Shown: positions 7,584-60,208 of the stretch, piece by piece
How positions within the stretch are numbered: position 1 is the stretch's first letter
Layout of the letters: the number at the start of each line of letters is the position of its first letter
From: Daphnia pulex
Lineage: Eukaryota; Arthropoda; Branchiopoda; Diplostraca; Daphniidae
Reading direction: 5' to 3'
DNA length: 64,000 nt
Assembly: GCF_021134715.1 (NCBI RefSeq)
Contig: NC_060017.1
Span: 1,612,001 to 1,676,000, forward strand
Notes under the pieces: generated by a model
Databases searched by the model: none
Told to the model about the DNA's origin: nothing
What the model saw: only the letters and a program-made list of their open reading frames with translations
Translations under genes and position numbers: made by a program

Positions 7584-10500
7584 TTAAGACAAAACTTTGG
7601 CCTTTATCCAGTCTGAATAGGAAGTCACTCGAGTGTACACGCCCGGCTTGTCTTTCTCTGCGCAGCGGATGCCTGTCCGAGCGAAGAATAGCGTGTGAAA
7701 AAACTCATTCAAAATAACAAAACGAATGAAGATGTTCCTTACCCCAAGAGACTACGCCCACTACCGCCCATCGGCCAGTAGACATTTGATACATCAACGG
7801 ACCGCCAGAGTCACCCTGCAGATGTCAAATATTAGCGGCAATCAATACGGATGCCAACACTCTTTTTTCTTACCTGACAAGAGTCCTTGCCACCTGCTTT
7901 GTATCCGGCACATAGCTGTTGCTCACTGATTGGCTGAGTGTAAGCCTTTTGGCAATCAGCCAGGGCCCAAATGGGTAGGATTACTTCCAACAGGACTTCG
8001 CTAGCTTGTCCACTGTATGACGTCGTTCCCCATCCTAAAGAAATCAGAGTTCATACGATGATTAACAACAACTGATTTAGCGTTAGAAAAAAGCCAAACC
8101 TGTGACAAATGCGCTCTGTCCCTCGAGAACAACATTTGACGGAGGCAAACAGATGGGCCAAATGTCGCTGTTGAACGTGGCCTTCGTCTTGAGTTTGATG
8201 AGAGCAATATCATTCTTGTAGGTTCGCCGGTCGTACGATTCGTGCATGTAGATGGCTTCCGCACCGAAATCCCGGCGAGCCTCGCTCACCTGACTGAAAT
8301 CGTATTCGCCCAGTCGAACGGTCAACTCCTCTGGCTTGAAACTAGACGGTGGATTCGAAAATTTGTGTTAATCATATCAACCTTCTACTGGATGGATGTT
8401 AGGGGAAGTTTTACTTGTCGACGCAGTGGGAGGCAGTTAGAATGTGTTGGTCTGTGATGAGGACTCCACCGCAATACTGATCAGTCTTGTCACGGAGGAG
8501 AGCAGCCATCCAAGGCCATTCGCCCTTATCGGCCGGAACTCCGCCCACGATCCTTGTCGTCTGTTTCATGAGCTCGCCGCAACCTAGAGTGTCAATGAGG
8601 TCCATAAAGTCGATCTGAGAAACCATCAAATGTAAGAAAAATGTCTACCTTTCTTGGGTGCGGCAGCAGTCGGCACTGCTGCGACTGTGGTTGCAATAGG
8701 GGCTTTAGTAGTTGGAGCTGCGGTCGTAATGGGCGCTAGGGTAGTAGGAGCGGGTGTAGGGGGAGGTGGAGGCGGAGGCCGAGTTGATGGAACGGTTGGC
8801 TGGGTATTGTCTGGACAGCACACTCCCATATAACTGTCGTCAAAACAAAAAGAGAGTTAAACCATACGTCACATTCTTCTTTTAAAAGGCAATTGACCTG
8901 GAATTTCTTCAACTTAAAGAAAACAAAAACATGACACGAAATGACAAAAACTCACTCGCTGCCGATGGGACAAGCATAACTGACGAAGGCATTCAACGTA
9001 GCTATAATTTCTTGCCGGGCACAGTGCTGGACGAAGCGGCACCGGCCAGACTGACTCAGAGGAGTCGAACATGTTTGATAGGCGAAATCCGGCTGTATAT
9101 GAATATAAATAATAGGTGATGAATTAAGTATAATAATCATCAAATAGGATGGATATTAGATATAGTTACGTTGCCAAATCCAAGATAATATGCCCGGCCG
9201 GGAATGAATCCTGGGACGTTGGTGCCCGATGGCAGCCACAGCGTCGATGTGCTGTCGATGTACTGTGCCCAGGTGAGACCTTTGAGTTCTACAAGGAAAC
9301 AAAAAAAAAATTAGAGTAATTCTATAACTAAAGGCGAACCATTTAAAATCAAAGGGTAACTACAGAACATGAGCTAGCTACGTCTACGTGCAAATTCAAT
9401 CAAAAATTCAATCATAATTCTTGGAAGAGTCTCGCATTTTCTTGTTTCGCTGTTGAATTAAATACCATGGGGCAAGTTGGCAATAGGAGAGTGAGTTGAA
9501 AAAATTTCGCCGTGTCCATGCCCATGATCAATTTCGGGACTCGGACGACATCTCCGACTATTCGGTCGTTGACGGCAAAATTCCGGACTGCCAGGGAAGA
9601 AATTGTTTGGTCTGTTTCCTTTGTATCCAAATCGATCGTTGAAGGAAAAAGGCACAAAAATACATGACGCATTAAAACAAATAGACTTTGATTCATCAGT
9701 TGCGTCCGTCTAGCAGTTAATCCATCACCTTGTCGTTATGCTCTTCCTGCCGAAGCCAAATATGCCAACACCGTCCAGTTCCATAATCGCACAACAAAAA
9801 GAATCAATGACATTGCTCAGATGTTACCAGTAAAGTGTCAAAAATGAAACCTGTAGACCTGACTCCAAGAAAATTAATGGAACGTGCTCTACAAGTGCTA
9901 GGCATTTTTTTTTTAGGAATGGTTCTTTTTTAGTTTAAGAGTTAGTAACCAAAGCAAAATAGTGGAAAACTTTTTGGTAGATAAAAAAGGAAATGTGTCA
10001 TAAGAATATGTGCTAAATCTTGGATCGTGTTTCAGCTAAACTAACTACATGAAATCAGATGAATAAAGCCAACAACCGGAAACCTTCACCAACCTGGCAC
10101 ATCAGCGAGATTAACTATGGTTATTTCTGTTGGCGGATTTTTAGTGGTTGTTGTAAGTTTGCTTTTCGTAGCTTTTGCAGTCGTTGTCGCTTTAGTTTTA
10201 GCTGTCGTGGTAGCTTTAGTAGTCGTTGTGGTAACTTTACCAGGAAAACTGACGTCTCCACCTCCTCCTCCTGGCTGCTGCTGAAACGGAACGCCTTGTG
10301 GATTAGCACCGAAGTTGGCCCAGGCCTGCGGATTTCCGAAGATACCCAAACCTGAATTTACTCCGCCACCGTTGTTTGCAGGACGGGCCAAATTGCTCAA
10401 CGCTTGGTTGAAGATTCCGCCAATTAGACCTCCGAATGCGTTGTTATTCAAATCTAATTGTTTCCCAGTAGCAGCACCATTTGAAGCCTGAGTGGCGGGA

Positions 10501-11638
10501 GTCCCGCCAGCCGGTCGGCTCAATGACGAAAGCAGACTGAACGCGTCATTTTGATCAACTGTATGTAAAAAAAAAATATATAGGTATGTATAATTGTATA
10601 TTTATATAAATTCAAAGAAATAAAGGTGAATTTCATTACTGAAGAAGTGTAGATCAAATATTAGTTCATTTTGCCCTTCGATACACTCAATTTAATCCAT
10701 GACAAAATTCCTACGCCACTAATTACTTGTTGCGAGCAGAGTAAACAAATCATTTAAAACTCATTAATAACAAGTTAGAGGTTATTCCAGAGAAACAAAA
10801 TATTTCCTTAAGAGGAACTAAAGGAATTATGGGTAAATTTGTATCTAATGTTTGAAATAAATGGAAAAAAATCGAATTAACGGATATATTAATCTACCAA
10901 ATCGAAAGACGACACTCAAGGATATCTACTTTTCCCATTTGCGTTCTTAAAATAAACGAGATATTTCAAATGCTCCGGCAGTTGGCATCCGAGACGAGCA
11001 AGGTCGTTCGACTAAAATCGTTTCGTGCGACTAACTTCCAGGTTTTCATTTCCTTCCTCATTCATTCCCATATTTGGAAATATTACCATGGACAAATGAA
11101 ACAAATAACTGACGTACATATGTGAATAGAACTAAACAATTTTAAGAAATTGGGCAACAGTGACTGATGATTCACGAATCGAGTAGAAAAAGCCGAAAGA
11201 ATTGAAAAGAAGCGGCTGAATGAAAATCAACAAAGAGGAAATGGATAGAAAAAAGAAAAAAAAAAATTGTCCGCCGGCTATTTTGTACGTTGCGCCATAC
11301 ACTCTTTATCCCCAAGGTTCAGACTGTGAGCCGACTCTTCTTCGCCTTGCCTTAATATTCTCTCGGCTTCGTTCGCCATCCCTCAAAGAATATTTGCACG
11401 AACTCAACAATTCCGTTATTCGCTTACCGATGTAACATTTTACAATATTTCACGATTTCAATAGACTAGCACTAGTAAAAAAGAATGACATTCTACCTTG
11501 ACGTTTCCTTCGCTCTTTAGGCCCGAACGATGATGGGTAGTCGATGTGGCCACGGCCGCTGACCGTCACTAATTCAGCCATTACGATGAGGCCGACGGTC
11601 AAATATACCCAACGTGATGTGGCTGAATTCCCCATCAT
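7584..11638 (-). CDS. CLIP-domain serine protease, trypsin specificity, 644 aa
   Basis: Secreted zymogen of the arthropod CLIP protease family, which acts in hemolymph cascades (clotting, melanisation, Toll). Eleven exons with GT-AG introns keep one frame: 11497-11638, 10094-10558, 9466-9618, 9170-9288, 8956-9092, 8649-8833, 8415-8583, 8100-8341, 7874-8034, 7743-7815, 7584-7672. Order: signal peptide (about 1-30); Gly/Asn-rich then Thr/Lys-rich region (about 50-200); CLIP domain with six Cys (about 298-346); Pro/Thr linker; protease domain. Activation site Arg411-Ile412 (RIVGG); His453, Asp501 and Ser594 form the triad; Asp588 at the S1 pocket base predicts cleavage after Arg/Lys. Cys402 is the usual link to the released light chain. 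The Thr-rich mucin-like insert is long for the family. The target protein cannot be told from sequence. It lies head to head with amylase A; its first seven exons have a partial copy at 17144-18052. Confidence 0.88.
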
Positions 11639-14248
11639 TTTAACACTGAAATCATCCGGGGGTCGAAATCACGTCACGATGCGACCAACACGCACTCTCA
11701 CAAAATACAAATGAAGAGAGGGAATAGAAATGTGAGAATGGTATAAGTTGACCAATTGTTGAGGTGATTACGATGCGTTGGGGCCAGAGAGCAGAGACGG
11801 TGAAATCCACCTGTGACACCGTGCGCAGCTGACGGGAGACTGAGGCTGCGAGTATGTAATGGCCGCTTCAACCACGAACCTTGGTTCTCTCCTGTTCTCT
11901 TCAATGTTTCTTTTTTTTCCCATACACCCACACATTTACGGCTTACCTGGGCCATTTTTCTTCTTCTTTTCTATTTTTCCAAGGCCTCTACAGTCGGCTT
12001 AGATTGAAAAATGCGCAATCGAAGACAAAGGACAATAATAAAAAGAAGGAAGAGAGGGAAAAAAGAGCACCGAGTACAACGAAAGTGAATACCGTACCAT
12101 ATGTTAGGGGAGGATAGGTTTAAACTGTAAACAGGTAAAATCATTCTGTCGTGTTTAATGGAGCTGAGATTACGACTAGAAGATTTTAGTTTTTCTTGTT
12201 CGTTGTGCTTACCTTTCCTTGCAATTACCTGCTTTTTTATTATTTTTATTTCTCAAGACGAAACATGTAGCACTCAATGCCAATGTCGTCTTTTTTAAAT
12301 TTGGGTTTCCCCCATGTTGGTAGATGCTCTACCTGTGCCGGATCTGAGTGAGACGGACATCATGACCATAGTGAAAGTTCTCCTCGCCACACAGGCACAG
12401 GCACACACACGTCTTCACAGTCTTGGCATCGTGTAATAAATGCCGGGCTTTTCCCAATTCTCACAAAAGAAAAGTATACCAGGAACCCGAATGGGAAAGG
12501 CCAAACAGAATTGCCTTGGTGACGTCATTTTCTCTATGAACTACATGTTTCCGGTTACGTATTTGAATATCCCTGTAAAAAAACAAGAGCATGTAAGGAC
12601 ACATTGTTGACGTCGGATATTTTGCGTGAATCCAACTGGAACAGTAGCGCAACTGAAGAGACAACGTGGGGGCCATTTTAATCAGTGGTGACTTGAACGA
12701 AGGAGCGGTAAGCTATATGTTTACACGACAGGGCGCTAATTTGGCGATCGCCTTGGACTGAGATTGACGATGTGGTTTTTTAGCTAGTTTCATTAATATA
12801 TATTTGGCTTTACATTAAATTGATTTGGTCAATGTCGGTCAAAAGCCGATAACCAAACGTATATTGCAAGGTAGTATGCATTATTTTAACCGCTAAGAGT
12901 AAATTTGTTTACTTTCAGATGAGATCGCCACACGACGGCAACGTAGAACAATCACATACTTTGCAAATTATTTCTCAGGAAGGCTTAAGCAATGATAAAA
13001 AAATTGGGTGAATGTCGAATTCTCGCAGACGTTCTGGCGTAATATTCACGCTATTCGCCGGGATTTACTGGGATTTACTTGACGGAGAATTTCTAAACTA
13101 TGCGTGAAATTACATGAACGCCATAATAAAGATTCAGGGTCGTTTGTTTATGCGAAACACAAGAATAGGAGATGTGATTTACAGTGTGTCGCTTTTATAT
13201 GTGGATTTTTTTGTCTTATTCCATCCGATTCCTTCTTGACAATAAAAGCAAGGTGCCCAATGTACTAATGCGTTTCGACGGTTCTTTCACGGCCGCAGCT
13301 ATACATACATGTATGATTTCAGAAAACCTTGTCCAATGAGTATTATTAAAATTGTGTGTTTTTTTTTTAAGCAGCATTGTGAATATTGCACTGCTCGAAT
13401 TTTTGATACAAAAAGTTTGTTTCTTTTGAACATGGGATGCAACCGTCTTGTTTTGCGTCCTCATTTGGCTTCATACCACGAAACGATTCCATCAAAAGGA
13501 AGCAATTTCCTTCCGGTATTTGGGCTGCTACAATTTTACCACACCCAACAGCCAACAAATAGCACCACACGCAACTTGACATCGATTCAAATCGCACATA
13601 ACAACTAAGGGCCAAAACGTTACAGGAGCGTGACTCCATCTTACGATAAAAAGCAATATCACTTTCAATTTTGTCATATTCAATTTTGTTCGTTTTAGAT
13701 TTGAAAAAAAAAATCAAGAACTTCTGGAGTAAAACGACACGGCAACTCTACAGGATGTGAATTTAAACGTGTATCAAGATAATGTATGATACGAGAAAAA
13801 GAGACTTTGAAATAGGTCACCCCTTGAAATTGTTAGTGATTTCGTAATGGTTAGCACCTGATCGGCATTGGCGCTTGTACGTCAGAGCAAACAAATATTG
13901 ATTCTTTTGGGCCAAGCAGAAAAACAAAAAATAACCTTTGGCATACAGTCAACAAACTGCAATGAAAAACAACATTTGATGCAAGCAGAGCAATTATCAG
14001 ATGCGGCGTTATGTCATTATGAACTACAAAATTAACAAAACCACATCACCTAGCCAATCAGTTAACGGTGATTCTACATGAAAAGCACAACTAGATTCTA
14101 GCCAAGCGTGTTCAACTTGAATTTTTAAGGTAATTTTTAATGCAAGAAAATCAGAATCTATTCAATATCAATTAATTAAAATAAAAGCGTTCTAAGAACT
14201 AAAGATTGGATTAATTAACTACAAGCTGATTAACTTTTTGGTAATAGA
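11639..14248. other. Intergenic region between CLIP protease and amylase A
   Basis: No gene found. It serves as the shared 5' flank of two divergent genes. Parts recur in the second repeat unit: 12560-12675 matches 18090-18195, and 12940-14248 matches about 19045-20558 with small indels. A TTATCA element (GATA site on the minus strand) near 13995 is conserved in the copy near 20268. Confidence 0.6.
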
Positions 14249-16523
14249 ATGAAGTTGTTCTTGCTGGTGATTGGGTTGCTGTTTTTGGGTGTTGGACAAA
14301 GTAAAGTGTTGCTACAAGGCTTTTGGTGGGAGTTTCAGAACGATAACTACCCGAATGCATGGGCCGACTATTTGGCCGAACTGTCACCCAGACTGGCCGA
14401 AATAGGCGTCGATTCCGTCTGGGTACCACCGACTATAAAAAATCAAGGCTATGGGGTAGGTTATGCCCCATTCGACCACTACGATCTTGGAGACAAGTAT
14501 CAAAAGGGTTTCACTGGAACGCGCATCGGGACTAAAGATGAGCTACTCCGTATGGTGGCCATTATGCATGCCAATGGAATTGATGTCGTTCAAGATGGGT
14601 ATAAACGCTTATCTGCTATTTAAATGTTACCCTCCTGAACTTGCTATCACATTCAGAGTACTTAACCATTTAATTGGAGCCGGTTCGAGCGACGGTTCCG
14701 GAGGGACTGATCCGGCTGCCTGGAACGATAAATACACAAACTTCCGTTATGTCAGTTTCGCCACTCCTGCCACGACAGAAAACGAAGCCGATTATCTTTC
14801 CCGAGCTGGAAGATTTCCAAAGAACTGGGAAAATTTCCACAACAATCCAGTATTATTTTATACCGTTAATTTCAGAATGTTGACATGTGCAATACATATT
14901 TTCTTATTTTTTAGGGACACGATTGTTTGTCCGGAGATATTTGCGCTGGATATTGGGGACCTGACGTCTGTTACTATCCAGATGCTTACGGACAGAGCTC
15001 GAATGCCATATACAATCCTCCGCAGTCGTCCGATTACATGCGAAACGAAGTGCGCAAATGGATCATCTGGTACAAAAAGCAAATGGGAATCGACGGATGG
15101 AGATTTGACGCTGTCAAACACTTTTTGCCGTCCGCCATGGAGGACTTCCTTTACAATCTGCAATTTAACGCCGGATGGGCTAGCGGAGGAGATGAAATGT
15201 TCGCCGTGGGAGAGTACGTCGGAGGAGGCGCAGAGCTTGACAACTGGTGTAACAGCGTTCAAAATCGAGCGGGAACTTTTGACTTTGGTCTTCGAGGATC
15301 CATTTATGGACTCGTCACTGGTAATGGCAACTTTGACATGGGATCCATCCCAGGGGCACAGCAAGGAAACCGATTGCGAACCGTGCCATTCGTTAACAAT
15401 CACGACACATTCCGGCCAATCTTGACCACCGATGGTAATTACAATGGCTGGGACACTTCAAACGAACTGGCGACCCATATAGATCCTTACGATGGACGCC
15501 TATCAGCTGCTTATGCTGTCGCATTCGCCGTCGATGGAACTCCCGCTGTTTTCATCGAGGACCTTTTTGATTTGGGAAAACTTGGAAATCGGTTCACTCA
15601 CGATCCTAAAGACGCTGCCCAGTTGCCTATGCGGTCGAACATTGCCAACATTATCTGGTGCCACCAACATCTTCGTTTCAAAGAGGGCGCTTACAAAGTA
15701 CCTCACAGATCCGGCGATCTGTTGGTCATTGAACGAAGCGCCAAGGCTATTATAGGCGTCACAGACAGCTGGACCGTATGGCAAACCGTCACTATAGGAA
15801 CCGATTTCCCGGCCGGCACAGTCCTGAAGGATTACTCTGGGGCCACTGTCGAAACTGCAACTGTTGGAGGAGACAAGAAGGTCACTATTAAAGTTCCACC
15901 TTGCAACGGCGAAGCTCTCAATGGAAGAAGGTGTTACGCCATCTGGGGTCCGCTTACTCCGCCTGGTTACACTGCTAACGTGCGCGAAACAACCCAAGAG
16001 TGGGAAATGGCCGATGATTTGGGCGACAGTCATCCGCTTTCGTTGCAGCAAGGCGGCCAGCTGCCAGCTTATTCCGTCGAGACACGAACAGTTGGAAAGA
16101 TTTTCGTCGCGGCTTCTTCGCCCGTTACCTTCTATCTTTTCTTAGCCGATTCTTTGAATGGAGTAACCGTCGAGCTCTACAACGACCAAACGCTCGTCCA
16201 CAGTGAATCACCCAGCGCCACAGGAAGCTATACTCCTAATTTCACTGGATGGTAATAACATGATTGGCTTACGCCCTACAGGCATAACTTGTTGAATGAC
16301 TCTTTAATATTACTCATTGATTCGATTTTATTTTGTCGGTTCAAGGCTTACCATCAAAATTAGAAATACGGAGGCCACATCACCTGGGCAAATAGTTTGG
16401 GTGGTCATGACATACAAACCGCCTGCCCAAGTCACCACGGATCTTTTTGACTCGAAATTGAACGCCACCGGTGACTGGGATCTTTATCATCGAATGGTCA
16501 ATTGGCCGCGATCTAAACTCTGA
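14249..16523 (+). CDS. Alpha-amylase, GH13, bacterial-like type, copy A, 685 aa
   Basis: Secreted endo-acting starch/glycogen hydrolase (alpha-1,4 bonds). Four exons join in frame: 14249-14598, 14657-14849, 14915-16251, 16346-16523. A signal peptide (about 1-18) precedes KVLLQGFWWEF. Conserved GH13 regions: VQDGVLNH (about 114-121), GWRFDAVKH with nucleophile Asp246, acid/base Glu281 in FAVGEY, and FVNNHDT with Asp345. After the barrel come a beta domain (about 440-540) and a further C-terminal beta-rich region. Classical animal amylases are shorter (about 500 aa) and have different region II wording (typically GFRxDAxKHM); this one resembles liquefying bacterial enzymes (AxxGVDSVWVPP, YDLGDKYQKG). 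A polyadenylation signal lies at 16632-16637. Copy B at 20559 is nearly identical. Starch digestion is the likely job. Ancient transfer from bacteria is possible but unproven. Confidence 0.93.
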
Positions 16524-16800
16524 AATTGAATAGGGTTTTTTAATACTTCACCTTTTTTTTTTTTTTGTTTTGTTTGTTTGTTTTTTTGCTTTAGTAAACC
16601 GTGCTTCATTATAAATATTCACGGGACACAGAATAAACTTGAATTAGCCTAAATATTATGTCCAGGTAGTAGTACATTCTACTGAATTCTAACGTGAACA
16701 ATTTTACACAAGGCAGAATATATATATCACAACTATAGCTTGATTTTTCAAGGTTTTTTAAAAATTGAATTTATAAGGGGTATCTCACTTGTCTCAACGA

Positions 16801-18052
16801 TCAAATCGATGATATTTTATCAATCCAATCGGAGATTGCCGATACTCTTGTATAAACACCTGGTTGTCCAGCTACTGCACATTTGCCGTCAAATGAGTCA
16901 ATGCCTGTGAAAATTTTTGTGACACATTAATTACGTTCACGTACTTATAATGTCTGAATATCTTTTTATTGATGAATACTTGAATAGCGTACCCCATGAA
17001 ACGATTCCAACCACAGCCCATCGACCGGATTCCATTTTGTACACGAGTGGTCCACCCGAGTCGCCCTAGACGTACAATCAATTTTTAGTTTTGTAAAAAC
17101 CCCGCCTTCGACTTGATGAAGGTTGGAATAACGGAAGTTATACTTGTCGACGCAGTGGGAGGCAGTTAGAATGTGTTGGTCTGTGATGAGGACTCCACCG
17201 CAATACTGATCTGTCTTGTCACGGAGGAGAGCAGCCATCCAAGGCCATTCGCCCGTATCGGCCGGAACTCCGCCCACGATCCTTGTCATCTGTTTCCTGA
17301 GCTCGCCGCAACCTAGAGTGTCAATGAGGTCCATAAAGTCGATCTGAGAAACCATCAAATGTAAGACAATGTCTACCTTTCTTGGGTGTGGCAGCAGTCG
17401 GCACTGCTGCGACTGTGGTTGCAATAGGGGCTTTAGTAGATTGAGCTGCGGTCGTAATGGGCGCTAGAGTAGTAGGTGTAGGGGGAGGCGGAGGCGGAGG
17501 CCGAGTTGCTGGAACAGTTTGCTGGGTATTGTCTGGACAGCACACTCCTATATAACTGTCGTCAAAACAAAAAGAGAGTTAAACCATACGTCACTTTCTT
17601 CTTTCAAAAGGCAATTCTGTCCCGATTCTTGATGTCAAGTGTATGACAGTTACATGAGAGATTGGGGAAAAATTGACCTGGAATTCTTCAACGTAAAAAA
17701 AATACACGAAATGACAAACACATACTCGCTATTGATGGGACAAGCGTAAATGACGAAGGTATTCAAAGTGGCTATAATTTCTGGTCGGACGAAGCGGCAC
17801 CGGCAACATTGACTCAGAGGAGTCAAACAAGATTGATGGGCGAAATCCGGCTGTAAATGAATAAAAATGTTGGTTGATAAATTACGTATAAAAAATAATT
17901 ATCATCTTGTAGGGTGGATTATAGATATAGTTACGTTGGAAAATCCAAAATAATATGCCAGGCCGGAAATTAATCCTGGGACGTTGGAACGATGGCAGCC
18001 ACAGCAATCGATGTACTGTCAATGCATTGGGCCCAGGTGAGACCTTTGAGTT
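16801..18052 (-). pseudogene. Chimeric, truncated serine protease pseudogene
   Basis: Exon-like blocks: 17935-18052, 17726-17850, 17377-17555, 17144-17312 (copies of CLIP protease exons 4-7), then 16993-17065 and 16801-16904 (copies of the last two exons of the protease at 25130-27296). Exons for the catalytic Asp and the S1 pocket are missing, as are CLIP exons 1-3. The exon 4 copy carries small indels that give a stop. The CLIP copy has lost nine bases with one Cys and gained two Cys. Joining 17144 to 17065 would shift frame. The His and Ser blocks remain readable (TASHC, DSGGP). The swap from one parent to the other falls inside an intron at about 17093-17108. This looks like an unequal-crossover product, not a working gene. 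Confidence 0.85.
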
Positions 18053-20558
18053 CTGCAAAGAAACAAAAAACGACGCACTCGCATTTGAATATCCCTGTAA
18101 GAATTAACATGTAAGGACATATTGTTGACGTCAGATATTTTGCGTGAATCTAACTGGAACAGTAGCGCACTGAAGAGACAACGTGGGGGCCATCGTCCGG
18201 AAAATTGAAATAAAATGAGGAATCGTTCTTTTCTTTCTTCTTCTTCTCAAAAGAAAAAAAATTCTATCGAATAATCAAAAGAAAAATAGCGAAAAATAGT
18301 CGGGAGACAAGAGAGATACAAGATAACACGACTGGTATAGTAGGTACAGTAGGTACAGCACTGATAAGAGTAGGTAGTACTGGTAGAGTAGGTACAGTAA
18401 CACGGCTGGTATAGTTATGTGGAATCTTTTGAGCCGATCTCTTATTGGCGCTTGGTGGCATCAACCTGCGAGCAGAGGTTCACCAGCAGAGACACACCGG
18501 TATATTAATATTATATAGCGTGTGTGGGGGGGTCTGAACGTGCGCGTCTGCGCGAGCCCCCCGCTCGCCCGCCTCTTATTCTCTTGTGCTGTGCGGTTGT
18601 TTATACAAGCCGTGAAGGTATGGGTCGCAGCGGTGTATCTCTATCTTATTGTACACGAACGGAAAATTTCATTCATTCGCCCAGCAGAAAGAACCCTCAA
18701 TCATCGTGAAGCCACAGTCGAGAAGGATGCTGCGTGAAAATACAATAGCTTTTCGAGCTTTTCTTTTTCTGCTGACGTAATGTTAAAATTGTTTTTGTAT
18801 GAACTGGGGTTGTTGACAGTATGAAAAAATAAATTTCCATTTTCTTCTTCTTAGATTTCCTTTTTCTTTTTAAATCCTGAGAGTCTCTAATGATTCGGTT
18901 GCATTCAAATGACCTCTGATTGTTGTGGGTGGGTTGCATTTTTTTTTTTTGGTCTCGGTAGAGGACCAGCACTTCTCACACACGGTAATTAGACACCACA
19001 GGCCACTTGCCGGCACACGGTGGTACGTAGTTAGGTACAGTATAAAAATCACATACTTTGCAAATTATTTCTAAGAAAGCTTCAAAGGCAACTATAGAAA
19101 ATTGGGTGAATGTCGAATTCTCGCAGACGTTCTGACGTAATATTCACGCTATTCGCCGGGATTTACCAGACTGCGAATTTCTAAACAATTCGCGTGAAAT
19201 GACATGAACACCATCAAGATTCAGGGTCATTTGTTGATGTAAAACAAGAATAGGAGATGTGATTTACAGTGTGTCGCTTTCATATGTGGATTTTGTTTGT
19301 CCTATTCCCTTTTGACACCAAGAGCAGAGTGTCCAATGTGTTATGCGTTTCAACGTTCCTTTCACGGCCGCCGCTATACATTATTTCTACATGCGTGTAC
19401 AGTATGATTTCAGAAAACCTTGACCTATGAGTATTTATTAAAACTGCTATTTTCAAAGTAGCATTTGTGATTTTTGCACTGCTTGAATTATTGATACAAA
19501 TTTGAAATTTGTTTCTTTTGAACACGAGATGCAACCTTTTTATTTGATGTCCTCATTTGGCTTCATACCATGAAACGATCCATCGAAAGGAAGCGATTTT
19601 CTTCCGGTCTTTACTCTTTAGGCTACTCAAATTTTACCACACCCAACCGCTTACAATTAGAACCACACGCAACTCGACGTCGATTCAAATTGCGCATAAC
19701 AACCATGTACCGCAACGTTACAGGAACGTGACTCCATCTTACGATAAAAAGCAATATCATGTTCGATGTTGTTATGTTCAAATTTGTTTGTTTTCGATTG
19801 GAACGATCTAGAACTTTTTAGAGGTAAAACGACACGTCAATTCTAAACAGGATGTGAATTTAAACGTGTATCAAGATAATTTATGATACGAGAAAAAGAG
19901 ACTTTGAAATAGGTCACTCCTTGAAATGGTTCTGATTTCATAATGGTCAGCACCTGATGGGCATTGGCACAGGCTTTAACCACCGTGATAGATTTTCCTG
20001 TCGCTTTTTGGACGAGCGTACCAGGGGCGGGCATTGAGTGGATTTGTACTGGTGATCAGTATACATACTACTTTATCAGGTTTGCGAGGATAAGGAACAT
20101 GAAACAACAGAAAAACAAGGAGGCGCGGTACGCTTGTACGTCAGAGCGTCAGAGCAAAGTAAAAAACAAATATTGATTCTTTTAGGTTAAGCAGAACAAC
20201 AAGAAATAACCTTTGGCATATAGTCAACAAACCGCATGAAAAACAACATTTGATGCAAGCGGAGCAATTATCAGATGCGGCATTATGTCGTTATTCACTA
20301 TTGAATTAACAAAACTACATCACCTAGCCAATCAGTTAACGGTGATTCTGCATGAAAAGCACAACTAGATTCTAACCAAGCGTGTTCAACTTAAATTTTT
20401 AAGGTAAATTCTTGATACAAGAAAATCAGATTCTATTCAATTTTAAATCATGACAGGAACCATAAAGTGCATTAGCAAAGGAATTGAGCTATGAGCTTTA
20501 TAAAATCTAGAGATTGGATTAACTAATAACTATAAGCTGTTAACTTTTTGGTAATAGA
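18053..20558. other. Intergenic region upstream of amylase B
   Basis: No gene found. 18090-18195 and about 19045-20558 copy the region upstream of amylase A. The stretch 18200-19040 is not found there: it includes the repeat at 18323-18417 and a GC- and CpG-rich patch near 18520-18600. A TATA-like sequence (TTTATAAAAT) lies near 20497, about 60 bp before the amylase B start codon; copy A lacks a good match. Confidence 0.55.
18323..18417. repeat. Short degenerate tandem repeat (TAGGTACAG-type)
   Basis: Two versions of an ACACGRCTGGTATAGT element frame repeated TAGGTACAG and CTGGTAGAGTAGG units. Read directly; copies are imperfect. Absent from the matching region upstream of amylase A. Confidence 0.6.
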
Positions 20559-22855
20559 ATGAAGTTGTTCTTGCTGGTGATTGGGTTGCTGTTTTTGGGT
20601 GTTGGACAAAGTAAAGTGTTGCTACAAGGCTTTTGGTGGGATTTTTGGAACGATAACTACCCGAATGCATGGGCCGACTATTTGGCCGAGCTGTCACCGA
20701 GGCTGGCCGAAATAGGCGTCGATTCCGTCTGGATACCACCGACAATAAAAAATCCAGGCTATTGGGTAGGTTATGCACCATTCGACCACTACGATCTAGG
20801 AGACAAGTATCAAAAGGGTTTCACTGGAACGCGAATCGGGACTAAAGATGAGCTACTCCGTATGGTGGCCATTATGCATGCAAATGGAATTGATGTCGTT
20901 CAAGATGGGTATAAACGCTTATCTGCTATTTAGATGTTACTTCGGCAGAGTCTCCTAAACTTTTTGTGACACATTTAGAGTACTCAACCATGTAACGGGA
21001 GCCGGAGCGAGCGATGGTTCCGGAGGGTCTGATCCGGCTGCTTGGAATGATAAATATACAAACTTCCGTTATGTCAGTTTCGCCACTCCCGTCACGACAG
21101 ATAACGAAGCTGATTACCTTTCCCGAGCTGGAAGATTTCCAAAGAACTGGGAAAATTTCCACAACAATCCAGTATTATTTTATACCGTTAATTTCAGAAT
21201 GTTGACATGTGCAATACATATTTTCTTATTTTTTAGGGACACGATTGTTTGTCCGGAGATATTTGCGCTGGATATTGGGGACCTGACGTCTGTTACTATC
21301 CAGGTGCTTACGGACAGAGCTCGAATGCCATACACAATCCTCCGCAGTCGTCCGATTACATGCGAAACGAAATGCGCAGCTGGCTCATCTGGTACAAAAA
21401 GCAAATGGGAATCGACGGATGGAGATTTGACGCTGTCAAACACTTTTTGCCGTCCGCCATGGAGGACTTCCTTTACAATCTGCAATTTAGCGCCGGATGG
21501 GCTAGCGGTGGAGATGAAATGTTCGCCGTGGGAGAGTACGTTGGAGGAGGCGCAGAACTTGACAACTGGTGTGCCAGCGTTCAAAATCGAGCGGGAACTT
21601 TTGACTTTGGTCTTCGAGGATCCATTTATGGAATCATCACTGGTAATGGCAACTTTGACATGGGATCCATCCCAGGGGCACAGCAAGGAAACCGATTGCG
21701 AACCGTGCCATTCGTTAACAATCACGACACATTCCGGCCAATCTTGACCACCGATGGTAATTACAATGGCTGGGACACTTCACAAGAACTGGCGGCCCAT
21801 ATAGATCCTTACGATGGACGCCTATCAGCTGCTTATGCTGTCGCTTTCGCCGTCGATGGAACTCCCACTGTTTTCATCGAGGACCTTTTCGATTTGGGAA
21901 AACTTGGCAATCGATTCACTCACGATCCTAAAGTCGCTGCCCAGTTGCCTATGCGGTCGGATATTGCCAACATTATCTGGTGCCACCAGCATCTTCGTTT
22001 CAAAGAGGGCGCATACAAAGTACCTCACGGATCCGGCGATCTTTTGGTCATCGAACGAAGCGCCAAGGCCATTATAGGCGTCACAGACAGTTGGACCGTA
22101 TGGCAAACCGTCACTATAGGAACCGATTTCCCGGCTGGCACAGTCCTGAAGGATCACTCTGGGGCCACTGTCGAAACTGCAACTGTTGGAGGAGACAAGA
22201 CAGTCACTATTAAAGTTCCACCTTGCAACGGCGAAGCTCTCAATGGAAGAAGGTGTTACGCCATCTGGGGTCCCCTTACTCCGCCTGGTTACACTGCTAA
22301 CGTGCGCGAAACAACCCAAGAGTGGGAAATGGCCGATGATTTGGGCGACAGTCATCCGCTTTCGTTGCAGCAAGGCGGCCAGCTGCCAGCTTATTCCGTT
22401 GAGACCCGAACAGTTGGAAAGATTTTCGTCGCGGCTTCTTCGCCCGTTACCTTCTATCTTTTCTTAGCCGATTCTTTGAATGGAGTAACCGTCGAGCTCT
22501 ACAACGACCAAACGCTCGTCCACAGTGAATCACCCAGCGTCACAGGAAGCTATACTCCTAATTTCACCGGATGGTAATAACATAATGGGCTTACGCCCTA
22601 CAGGCATAACTTGTCGAATGACTCTTTGATGATATTACGTAATGATTCGTTTTTGTTATTTTTTTTTTCGTTTTAAGGCTAACCATCAAGGTTAGAAATA
22701 CGGAGGCCACATCACCAGGGCAAATAGTTTGGGTGGTCATGACATACAAACCCCCTGCCCAAGTCACAACGGATCTTTTTGACTCGAAATTGAACGCCAC
22801 CGGTGATTGGGACCTTTATCATCGAATGGTTAATTGGCCGCGATCTAAACTCTGA
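20559..22855 (+). CDS. Alpha-amylase, GH13, bacterial-like type, copy B, 685 aa
   Basis: Same gene model as copy A: exons 20559-20908, 20979-21171, 21237-22573, 22678-22855, all phases matching. Same length, signal peptide and catalytic residues (Asp246, Glu281, Asp345). Differences are scattered substitutions, for example DFWNDN for EFQNDN near the N-terminus, MRSWLIW for VRKWIIW before region II, and GIITG for GLVTG. Intron 1 has diverged, yet the 65-bp intron 2 is identical to that of copy A, hinting at recent gene conversion. A polyadenylation signal is at 22939-22944. Both copies look functional, so the duplication probably raises dosage. Confidence 0.93.
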
Positions 22856-23741
22856 AATTGAATAAGGTTTCATTGCTTCGTTTGTTTGTTTTTTACTTTA
22901 GCAAACCGTGCTTCATTACAAATATTAACGGGACACAGAATAAACTTGAATTAAATATTCTTTGTCCAATCTTAAAAGTAAAATCAACTTTATCCAGGAT
23001 TGATCAATAATTAGAATTAATATAATAGTGCAAGTAGACGATTAAATTTGTTTGGCTCCTCAATCCTCATTGGAAATTGGAGAAACAAATTAATCGGCAA
23101 ATCGATCAACACCAAACGAAGTACGGTACTAGCGGCTTTTATCTAGTTAATAGTTCCCCAAGGTAGGTTATGGGTGTGGGATAAACAAGAAGGTAACCCT
23201 TTTTCTTTTCTTTATGAAGTATACTTTGAACTTGGGACAACAAGATGAAAAACAAATAGAAAAAGAAACCCAAACACATTTTTAGCAATAGTGTTTCTTT
23301 ATCGACATTTAAAAACACACTGCAAGCTTGTAAATAACACTTCATTACTAAGCTAGCTGGAATGATATACTGTATATAACTTCAAATTTCCACCACGTCG
23401 ATTTCAAAACGCAGAAAATAATAGACCTTTCACTCGCTGAAAGATTTAGGGGCTTACCTGTTACGCCAACAGGCTACACTTCAGTAAATTGTGGTTCGAC
23501 CGAAGAGTTGCCATAAATGCCAGAAACAATTTGGAGGACATCCATCGACTTTCTATCCGACGATGTAGAAAATTACCGACAAATGCAAGTAGGGGATTCA
23601 AGCGGTTAGGAAAACCTTTGTTAAGGGTTTTCGCCAACCATTTTGAGTTGTTCAGATAAATTCAGTTACGCATAATGTCTTATTGTACCCGCGCGGCACT
23701 CAGGTATAGTGCGCTAGGTAATATATATGTGTGCACTCTAG

Positions 23742-23930
23742 ATTTCACCGGATGGCAATAATAAATGGGGCTGACCTCTTTTATTAGGCATGTGCTTGTC
23801 CAAGGATTGTTTGGTATTATGTAATAGTTTGTGTTTATTTAGGCTGACCACCAAGGTTATAGAAATACGGAGGCCACTTCAGCTTGGACAAACGGCTGCT
23901 GTCTGGATTGTCATGACCTATAAAAAAATT
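23742..23930 (+). pseudogene. Relic of a third amylase (3' end only)
   Basis: The end of exon 3 (TTTCACCGGATGG), the intron, and part of exon 4 are recognisable. At about 23843-23928 the frame reads LTTKVIEIRRPLQLGQTAAV and continues to WIVMTYK, matching the amylase C-terminus LTIKIRNTEATSPGQIVWVV. The homology stops after MTYK. Only these parts exist; no catalytic region is present. Confidence 0.8.
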
Positions 23931-25129
23931 GCATTACATTGGGTTCCAATAATATCCAGAATTTTATGTTACACTTTGGTTGGAGAACTTTACCGAAATT
24001 TAAAATAATATATATACATGAATCTCCTTATTTCCAAAACAGGAATAATATTGCTTTCCACTCTTTATTTTTTTTAACTAACAGAAACAAATGTTTTTAT
24101 TTACAGGTCCAGAAAATTGTTCTATAATGCATGTTGAACTGTTGATTTTCATTTGACCTTGCAGAGTACTCGTGTATGCTTGGTAATAATACGTTTCCAA
24201 ACCGGTCTGAATCCCTCACTCTAACAAAAGATATTTTACGAGCATTGTCAGGCATGAAGGACGAATTCACAGGTAAACAAAATGAAACCACGTGCTAAAA
24301 CTGATGTTGGACCGTATAAGTCAATAACGGATTTCCATATACAAACTCGGAGCCTAGAGCAACGGTGAAGTAGCGCTTACATATAAATGGTCAATGACGT
24401 CGAGAAAATTTTGGAGGCTGCTGAGCCAACAAGTTGATTCGTTTCCAAGGGCGTCAACTACAAATAATATTAAAATGCATTCTTCCTTCTTCCCGTAAAT
24501 AAAATGTAGGTCAGTTTCTGGTAGACAAGCATGGAATAAGTATTCTTGAAACGGCTATTTAAAAAAAAATCAATTCATTCGATCCTTTGTTACTCGAAAG
24601 TTGTGCAAAGCAATTTTATTCATTATTGCTTGAATACCCGTTGCATAATAATAACTTCCAAATTTTCAATAAACTTTCCAATATGCTCCGATTGCGCAAT
24701 ATCAAGTAAATATACGTCGTGACCGTCAAAGGAAGCAGGAAGGTCATGATCAAGGTGATGCGCACCAACATCAAATTAGTTTCTAAGAGATCAACAACTT
24801 GGACCGCCCTCGAGTTTCAAAATAATCAGTCCGGGTAGCTCGTTCTGCTGAATCCTATCGCAAACAATTTTGTACAAGGCAGAAAAGTGAAAGCTAGACT
24901 ACTGCTAAACAACAAAAATTTACTAAAGTTTGACTTTTCATGGGGATTTTTATTGGATTTATTGGGGTACACCAAGTACAACATGTTTTAAAAGAGATAC
25001 GTATTTATATTGCTGATGATGAGTTTGTATTCTATAAATAACATAACAGAGAGCTCATGGCCGTGGCAGATTCTAACACTTAAATAACGCAGCTTCCTCA
25101 CGAGGATGACGTTGTTTTTGCCTCAACGA
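23931..25129. other. Intergenic stretch between amylase relic and serine protease
   Basis: No gene found. The part from about 24840 to the protease stop resembles 16680-16800, as expected for the duplicated 3' flank. Confidence 0.5.
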
Positions 25130-27296
<2,167 letters not shown>

Positions 27297-58799: not shown

Positions 58800-60208
58800 T
58801 TAATCTTCGTTCAAAGTCTCGGAGATGCGGCTGAAAATGGGGAGCCGGAGAGCGCGTGAAGTATCCATGGGGCTGGAGATGGATGGTGGAGGGCTAGTGC
58901 CGCCATTGCTGCTGCTGCTGCAGCTCGTGCTGCCCAGACTCAGCGAATCCAAGTCGGAAGCCAAAGAGCCCACCGGTGAAGGCGAGTCCAATTCCGGAAT
59001 GAAATTCTTGCCAGTCGAAGTCACCGAACGCTTCAAATTGTTGTTGTTGGTGCTGCTATTGTTGTTGTTATTGTTGAAGGCAGACGAATAACTGTTGGCC
59101 TTTCCAGAGGAAAAGAGCGGCAAACCGAAATCGGTCGATCCAAACAGGAAGGCGGACGCGTTGCCCAATCCAGACGAAGATGAAGATGAAGAGGGTCCCA
59201 TTGGTGAAAACGGGTTGCCCGGATACATGTCATCCGAGAAGAAAGTGCTCATTGAGGTCGGAGACTCGCTCAATGACGACGGAGGAGACGGAGAATCAGC
59301 CGTCGATCCATTGCCACCCATTCCAACCACTCCGGCCGGAAGAGTGAATTTACCACGATGAGCGTGTTGATTGTTGTTGTTGTTCTTGGTGGTTGCCGGT
59401 GGTGGTGGCGAATTGTTGCGAGCCTCTTCGGCATTGTGGACGAAATGGCAACGTGGGCCGTAGGGGCAAAAGCCGATGGTGTGGAAAGTGCGGCACAATT
59501 CCGTCTTGTATTTGGGGTGACGGATGAGACTGCGAAGCTCGTGAAATCCGTGAGCAAATTGGCATTTGTCGCCATATTTGCAGGTTCCATTCTCTTCGTA
59601 AGGTCGGCACAGCTCCGTCTTGTAGCGGCTGGAATTGGATTGCTGCTGCTGATTGATTTGCTGTTGCTGCTGGGCCAATTGGGCAGATCGATCCACCACC
59701 GGCTCGCTGTGGCTCCTGTCCAGTTTGCGGTGACCGCTTCGATGCAATTGCATCATCAAAGTTGAATGATTATTGTGTTGCTGCAATTGATTCGTCAGCA
59801 GAGATGATAACGACGATAGCGAATCAGCTCCAAAGAGGCTGCCCTCGTCCGAATCTGGGCTGCCCGGAGGATTAGAACGGCGACGACTCAACGGCCTGTG
59901 AGCACCCACCGCTTTCGGGTCAATCTGATGATTCATCTAATAAACAGAAGAAATAAATAAAAATAAAATAAGGTTTAATTAAAAAAATAAATCCTTGAAT
60001 GCGCACAAGGTCTTTCCCAATAATGTTGTTGCAGCCAAAAAAGCTGGCCAATTCGATATCGAGGCCATGTAATGTCGAATTCCGGGTGTGTTCGGGCAAA
60101 AATAAATAAAAAACTTACGGTCGACGCCGCAACATCCTTCAAACGTGTCGGCTGTGTCGGAACAAAGCTCACTGGCACCGAATAACTACGGGACAAAGTT
60201 GAAGGCAT
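58800..60208 (-). CDS. Tis11: Tis11/tristetraprolin-family CCCH zinc-finger protein, 408 aa
   Basis: Cytoplasmic mRNA-decay factor that binds AU-rich elements and recruits the CCR4-NOT deadenylase. Two exons, phase 0: 60119-60208 ([20 protein letters not shown] onward, 30 aa) and 58800-59936. Two fingers, each preceded by YKTELC: C140-X8-C149-X5-C155-X3-H159 and C178-X8-C187-X5-C193-X3-H197, separated by 18 residues as in the family. The extreme C-terminus [16 protein letters not shown] matches the CNOT1-binding motif. Gln-rich (about 118-130), Asn- and Ser-rich stretches flank the fingers; RSHSEP resembles a 14-3-3/kinase target site. Start chosen for the conserved-looking N-terminus; translation could also begin at the Met opening exon 2. 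Neighbours suggest no functional link to the proteases. Confidence 0.95.

Follow-up and report, generated by a model that had tools for sequence, protein, structure and literature searches.

Introduction

Chimeric genes that stand at the seam of a tandem duplication have their closest described examples in Drosophila yakuba and Drosophila simulans, where, in the available parts of two reports, partial tandem duplications end inside two genes and bring portions of both together (PMC5460883, PMC4503668). As to the way in which such ends are joined, the nearest body of data comes from CNV breakpoints in Drosophila. The accessible part of that work describes NAHR as negligible for CNV formation and non-homologous routes as dominant, with extra bases without microhomology forming a standard class of breakpoint (PMC4056370). 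Tandem amylases subject to concerted evolution, such as Amy1/Amy1', are already known from Daphnia pulex itself, according to the portion of the text available for PMC3096672.

Here, we describe a locus of D. pulex that touches on all three systems. It lies in a window of 64,000 nucleotides of contig NC_060017.1, and all positions below, unless another contig is named, are those of this window. As in the yakuba and simulans cases, the duplication ends lie inside two genes and a chimeric gene marks the seam. Unlike the chimeric genes reported there, however, the Daphnia chimera is a dead gene whose two parts are joined out of frame; its parents belong to one and the same superfamily, so that it mimics the product of a homologous crossover. 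The seam resembles the non-homologous breakpoints of Drosophila in its lack of homology and in the few bases that can be assigned to neither side, but it is old, and its original bases have been partly blurred by about 12% of divergence. The two amylases share with those described before their tandem arrangement and a short tract that looks converted; the D. pulex amylases treated in the available text have 6-14 introns, whereas the two reported here have only 3 and are of a bacterial type.

The chimeric seam adds a well-resolved case to a kind of event that is already known, and is a clear but ordinary scar. Its value is that of a near base-level record of how the amylase pair originated, provided with an internal clock. 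It also carries a more general caution: finding two related genes at its ends does not show that a duplication arose by homologous crossover, and both the register and the phase of the junction have to be examined. Of greater interest within the window would be the bacterial-type amylase, should it be confirmed.

The relic and its two parents

The features of the locus are collected in Table 1.

Table 1. Features of the duplicated locus, in order of their position in the window
Feature	Position	Strand	Basis or remark
CLIP-type serine protease, left parent, intact; 10 coding exons, 592 aa	7584-11635	-	Splice-checked model; Pfam Trypsin 7.5e-69
Duplication unit 1, from CLIP intron 6 to P2 intron 6	8381-17098		Collinear blocks
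CLIP block unusually close to the relic (counterpart about 17130-17630)	8398-8906	-	17/500 sites differ, against 58/394 in the remaining CLIP-relic alignment
Amylase 1, intact; 4 exons, 3 introns, 685 aa	14249-16523	+	Pfam PF00128
Relic, left part, P2-derived: E8p 16801-16904, intron, E7p 16993-17065 (GDSGGP exon), start of the fused intron	16801-17098	-	16789-17092 matches 25118-25398 at 84.4% (blastn, window against itself); both exons open and with their splice signals
Seam: P2 intron 6 joined to CLIP intron 6 within a fused 78-bp intron (17066-17143)	17099-17105	-	Alignment to both parents
Relic, right part, CLIP-derived: E6c 17144-17312, E5c 17377-17555, E4c 17726-17850, E3c 17935-18052	17105-18052	-	17105-18070 matches 8381-9306 at 82.9% (blastn, window against itself)
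Duplication unit 2	17105-25411		Collinear blocks
Amylase 2, intact; 4 exons, 3 introns, 685 aa	20559-22855	+	dS 0.104, dN 0.022 to amylase 1
Third amylase fragment, spanning intron 3 with the end of exon 3 and a portion of exon 4	23742-23924	+	blastn E 1.5e-9 to amylase 2
P2, second serine protease, right parent, intact; 8 coding exons, 501 aa	25130-27296	-	Splice-checked model; Pfam Trypsin 3e-54

The relic that separates the two amylases is composed of exons 7 and 8 of P2 and of coding exons 3-6 of the CLIP-type gene (hereafter CLIP). When it is compared with the whole genome, the match to P2 is confined to its bases 6-292 and the match to CLIP to its bases 305-1252, and hence the two parts are not equally similar to one parent. 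Base-level alignment narrows the transition further, with P2 similarity ending at about 17098, CLIP similarity beginning at 17105 and about 6 bases in between that fit neither. The relic is confirmed to be a genuine chimeric pseudogene, and it marks the seam where the amylase was duplicated in tandem.

Most of this structure had been anticipated from the sequence alone. The original prediction correctly assigned the left part to the final two exons of the second protease, and the outer coordinates that it gave, 16801 and 18052, are reproduced exactly by GT/AG exon ends, E8p ending at the former and E3c starting at the latter. It was also right that the remainder copies CLIP, although the exons, called 4-7, are numbered one too high with respect to the 10-exon model. 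The switch had been located inside an intron at about 17093-17108, between P2 intron 6 and CLIP intron 7; the position (about 17099-17105) and the P2 intron hold, while the CLIP intron turns out to be the sixth.

In Pfam, the left parent matched Trypsin and no CLIP model at E 0.001; its cysteine pattern, we assume, resembles CLIP. About 150 bp of P2, comprising its last exon, the intron and the edge of exon 7 (25156-25308), also occur as a copy of 89% identity on another contig (G000:C9:4690613-4690756, L018).

The duplication units

Between their CLIP and P2 parts, the two units share blocks in the same order and orientation: 12558-12676 corresponds to 18080-18193, 12943-13872 to 19040-19968, 13889-16646, which holds the amylase, to 20164-22953, and 16669-16718 to 24835-24884. 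The idea that the stretches 8.4-17.1 and 17.1-25.4 kb would line up is upheld as far as the collinear order is concerned, but they do so in blocks only, with large gaps on either side. Thus, unit 2 is devoid of 9307-12557 (where coding exons 1-2 of CLIP and its upstream DNA lie), carries 18194-19039 in place of 12677-12942 and has about 0.18 kb extra at 19969-20163. About 1.9 kb of unit 2 (most of 22976-25117; about 22976-24834) is in turn absent from unit 1. A segment present only in unit 2, 18206-18968, has a homolog of 71-77% identity, in two pieces of the same orientation, elsewhere on the same contig at G000:C1:6837323-6838008, and is possibly a dispersed element.

At the relic, the right end of one unit joins the left end of the next, and the units on both sides of it are collinear. 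A tandem duplication of about 8.7 kb, from which two intact amylases resulted, has its seam in the relic and CLIP and P2 at its outer ends. That two amylases stand where there had been a single one, as originally proposed, agrees with the one intact gene found in each unit, but the word single is uncertain given the additional 3′ fragment at 23742-23924.

It is extremely improbable that the doubled arrangement is an assembly error or the result of two merged haplotypes. The divergence of about 12% and the large differences between blocks go far beyond the silent diversity within D. pulex populations, which is 0.018 in the available part of PMC5427498.

Joining of the two ends

The CLIP and P2 proteins are 49% identical, and their register is fixed by the stretches ...SHCVDNFKPEE of CLIP and ...AHCLNDKRTEE of P2. 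In this register, CLIP intron 6 (8342-8414) corresponds to P2 intron 3 (26054-26152), and P2 intron 6 (25372-25450) to CLIP intron 8 (7816-7873), matching introns being of the same phase. The junction in the relic does not follow this correspondence. A phase-2 end (E6c) is joined there to a phase-0 start (E7p), and either CLIP exons 7-8 or P2 exons 4-6 are skipped, including the exon of the catalytic Asp.

The DNA at the breaks shows no similarity. The two joined introns reach a local score of 16 against 16.2 for shuffled sequences (z = -0.04), and an extension to about 300 bp on either side of each break (about 600 bp each) gives z = -0.85, whereas an in-register control, CLIP 7700-8400 against P2 25260-26150, scores 166 (z = 40). 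Within 300 bp of the breaks, the longest word shared by the two sides has 8 letters, a length that does not exceed those of 60 shuffles. Neither of the marks of NAHR, matching positions or long near-identical DNA, is found at the exchange point. A homologous crossover at the seam itself, considered as a candidate, was rejected on the register and on the absence of similarity at the breakpoints. The relic had been described as the precise product of recombination between the misaligned proteases, and in this form the claim is not supported, with CLIP intron 6 joined to a P2 intron that is not its counterpart and shows no similarity to it.

The wrong register, the clash of phases and the lack of breakpoint similarity together are better accounted for by non-homologous joining. 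Some microhomology of a few bp may have existed at the seam, and would now be illegible because of the divergence of about 12%.

The same seam could also result from a longer path, in which an unequal crossover in register first produced a full in-frame protease fusion and an internal deletion of about 0.5-0.7 kb later removed its middle exons. Such a path would draw on the homology and common orientation of the two proteases, on the agreement of phases at their matching introns and on the precedent of another large deletion in the relic, which removed the counterpart of 9307-12557. We nevertheless consider it rather unlikely: CLIP and P2 DNA are only 58% identical over their longest aligned stretch (481 columns), and of the 12 longest exact matches listed for them the longest that is in register measures 11 bp; the extra deletion would need both of its ends to fall by chance inside two introns; and the stretch 17066-17143 shows nothing left of the skipped exons.

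A single head-to-tail duplication by non-homologous joining, followed by decay of the relic, is in our view the likely history, and it is built directly on the chimera, the collinearity, the register, the phase, the absence of similarity at the breaks and the divergence. For the joining pathway, the singleness of the event, the order of decay and the conversion, we infer the following course. A segment of about 8.7 kb, with its ends midway in CLIP intron 6 and P2 intron 6 and the amylase between them, would have been duplicated once, the two breaks in unrelated intron sequence being joined either by end joining or by a replication template switch. The seam would thereby have become a P2/CLIP protease chimera, out of register and out of phase, that could yield no working protease by normal splicing. 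The chimera would then have lost its first two coding exons and the DNA upstream, suffered a frameshift in exon 3 and the deletion of a cysteine in its CLIP region, and sequence exchange with the live CLIP gene would have continued in part of it. The two amylases have remained intact under purifying selection.

Divergence and age

The seven non-coding or relic segments of the duplication that were pooled differ at 225 of 1922 sites and are homogeneous (p = 0.54). Two segments were kept outside this test as less diverged, the exon-rich P2 part (20/285) and 12558-12676 (5/112), and once they are added p becomes 0.043; the conversion block (16/469) and amylase intron 2 (0/65), both of which look converted, stand outside both tests. 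With these lower segments excluded, divergence is about even along most of both units. The dS between the two amylases lies at about the level of the pooled segments, which fits one duplication event. The mean published silent divergence between D. pulex and Daphnia obtusa being 0.134 in the available part of PMC12926508, the duplication would fit an age about equal to that of the divergence of these two species, or slightly younger, if its rate has been average.

Decay and present state of the relic

Exon E3c carries a frameshift and a stop, and E4c keeps its frame but has lost 12 bp with a cysteine, whereas E5c, E6c, E7p and E8p are open; all six exons keep their splice signals (GT/AG). Besides these disabling lesions, the relic shows the other hallmark of a pseudogene, which is more change than in its live CLIP parent: with a CLIP paralog as outgroup, 39 changes among 895 compared sites fall on the relic lineage and 20 on that of CLIP, 15 being ambiguous. 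The paralog, at C1:287-291 kb (L017, 9.9 kb), was matched in blocks over most of the gene, and no amylase adjoins it in a blastn search of the 9.9 kb locus.

The inner splice signals and the five of six exons still open in their old frames might indicate that the relic is alive, as a shortened or new protein or as a regulatory RNA. We regard this as very improbable, since coding exons 1-2 and the upstream DNA are lost, and the stop in E3c, the cysteine missing from E4c, the absent catalytic Asp exon and the phase clash at the seam all weigh against a product. The low level of change in E7p and E8p, which differ from P2 at 10/168 sites (5/95 and 5/73), is about half the neutral level, as expected for a neutral copy of a constrained gene.

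The relic is thus best seen as a dead copy, part of which was probably homogenised later with the live CLIP gene by gene conversion. The CLIP block that suggests this (Table 1) is closer to the relic than in any of 200 permutations (0/200 as extreme), and it includes about one intron's length where only 1/59 sites differ and the outgroup is clearly diverged. Constraint on the CLIP exons may add to the low divergence of the block.

The amylases

At the level of coding DNA, selection (dN/dS about 0.2) keeps the two amylases about 96% identical. Wholesale gene conversion between them was rejected, their dS of 0.104 not being significantly below the flank (p = 0.11, with the flank value entered as a rough 115 differing and 800 equal sites, the actual count being 106/890). 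A tract at 14798-15055 holds 130 consecutive non-coding or third-codon sites that are identical between the genes, all of intron 2 included (permutation p 0.002), and is the only one of the six longest identical runs to pass the permutation test; it looks like a short conversion tract. In contrast to the concerted evolution of the D. pulex amylases described in the available part of PMC3096672, conversion between the present pair, whose whole-gene dS stays near that of the flank, would thus be local.

The third amylase fragment was seen only in unit 2. It was missed by an amylase protein search, in which 5 candidates were scored, and was found by a sensitive blast. It equals amylase 2 at 134/170 sites and amylase 1 at 124/170, and may be either a copy of greater age or one that was made later from part of amylase 2.

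Amylase 1 matches the Pfam Alpha-amylase model weakly, with 44 bits, against up to 245 bits for other loci of the genome. Its relatives are encoded by 76 of 78 candidate stretches in bacterial genomes, at 42-59% identity, the best Bacteroidota match reaching 59% over residues 19-661 and one Calditrichota protein 57%, both nearly full length. In a tree of bacterial rows only, built from 65 of the 76 loci, the two amylases take a place among Bacteroidota, with Crocinitomicaceae and other Flavobacteriales nearby, within a group of 14 that receives an SH-aLRT of 89 and whose inner forks are partly unresolved; the stem measures 0.47. The other 11 loci, which include Verrucomicrobia and a Calditrichia locus, comprise 9 without a reading frame by the motif filter and 2 with a short overlap. 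The spliced exons and the animal-type genes that flank them speak against contamination.

A bacterial origin of these amylases by horizontal transfer is a possible lead from sequence comparison. In its fullest form, for and against which we see the chances as evenly divided, a starch enzyme would have been captured by an animal lineage from a relative of aquatic Bacteroidota, gained introns and been doubled non-homologously at about the time of the D. pulex-D. obtusa split, the dead chimera at the seam having kept trading sequence with its live parent. Among the literature matches listed, a set that holds few subscription papers, there is no account of this amylase duplication or of a bacterial-type amylase in Daphnia; the available part of PMC12102780 contains no mention of amylase, and that of PMC7003070 no mention of crustacea or of GH13_5.

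Other genes of the window

To the right of the duplication, the interval 30000-56000 is occupied by a tandem array whose copies are direct and in some cases inverted, and in which three tested reading frames match Pfam Trypsin. Further on, an open frame on the minus strand (58800-59936) encodes 378 aa that include CCCH zinc fingers.
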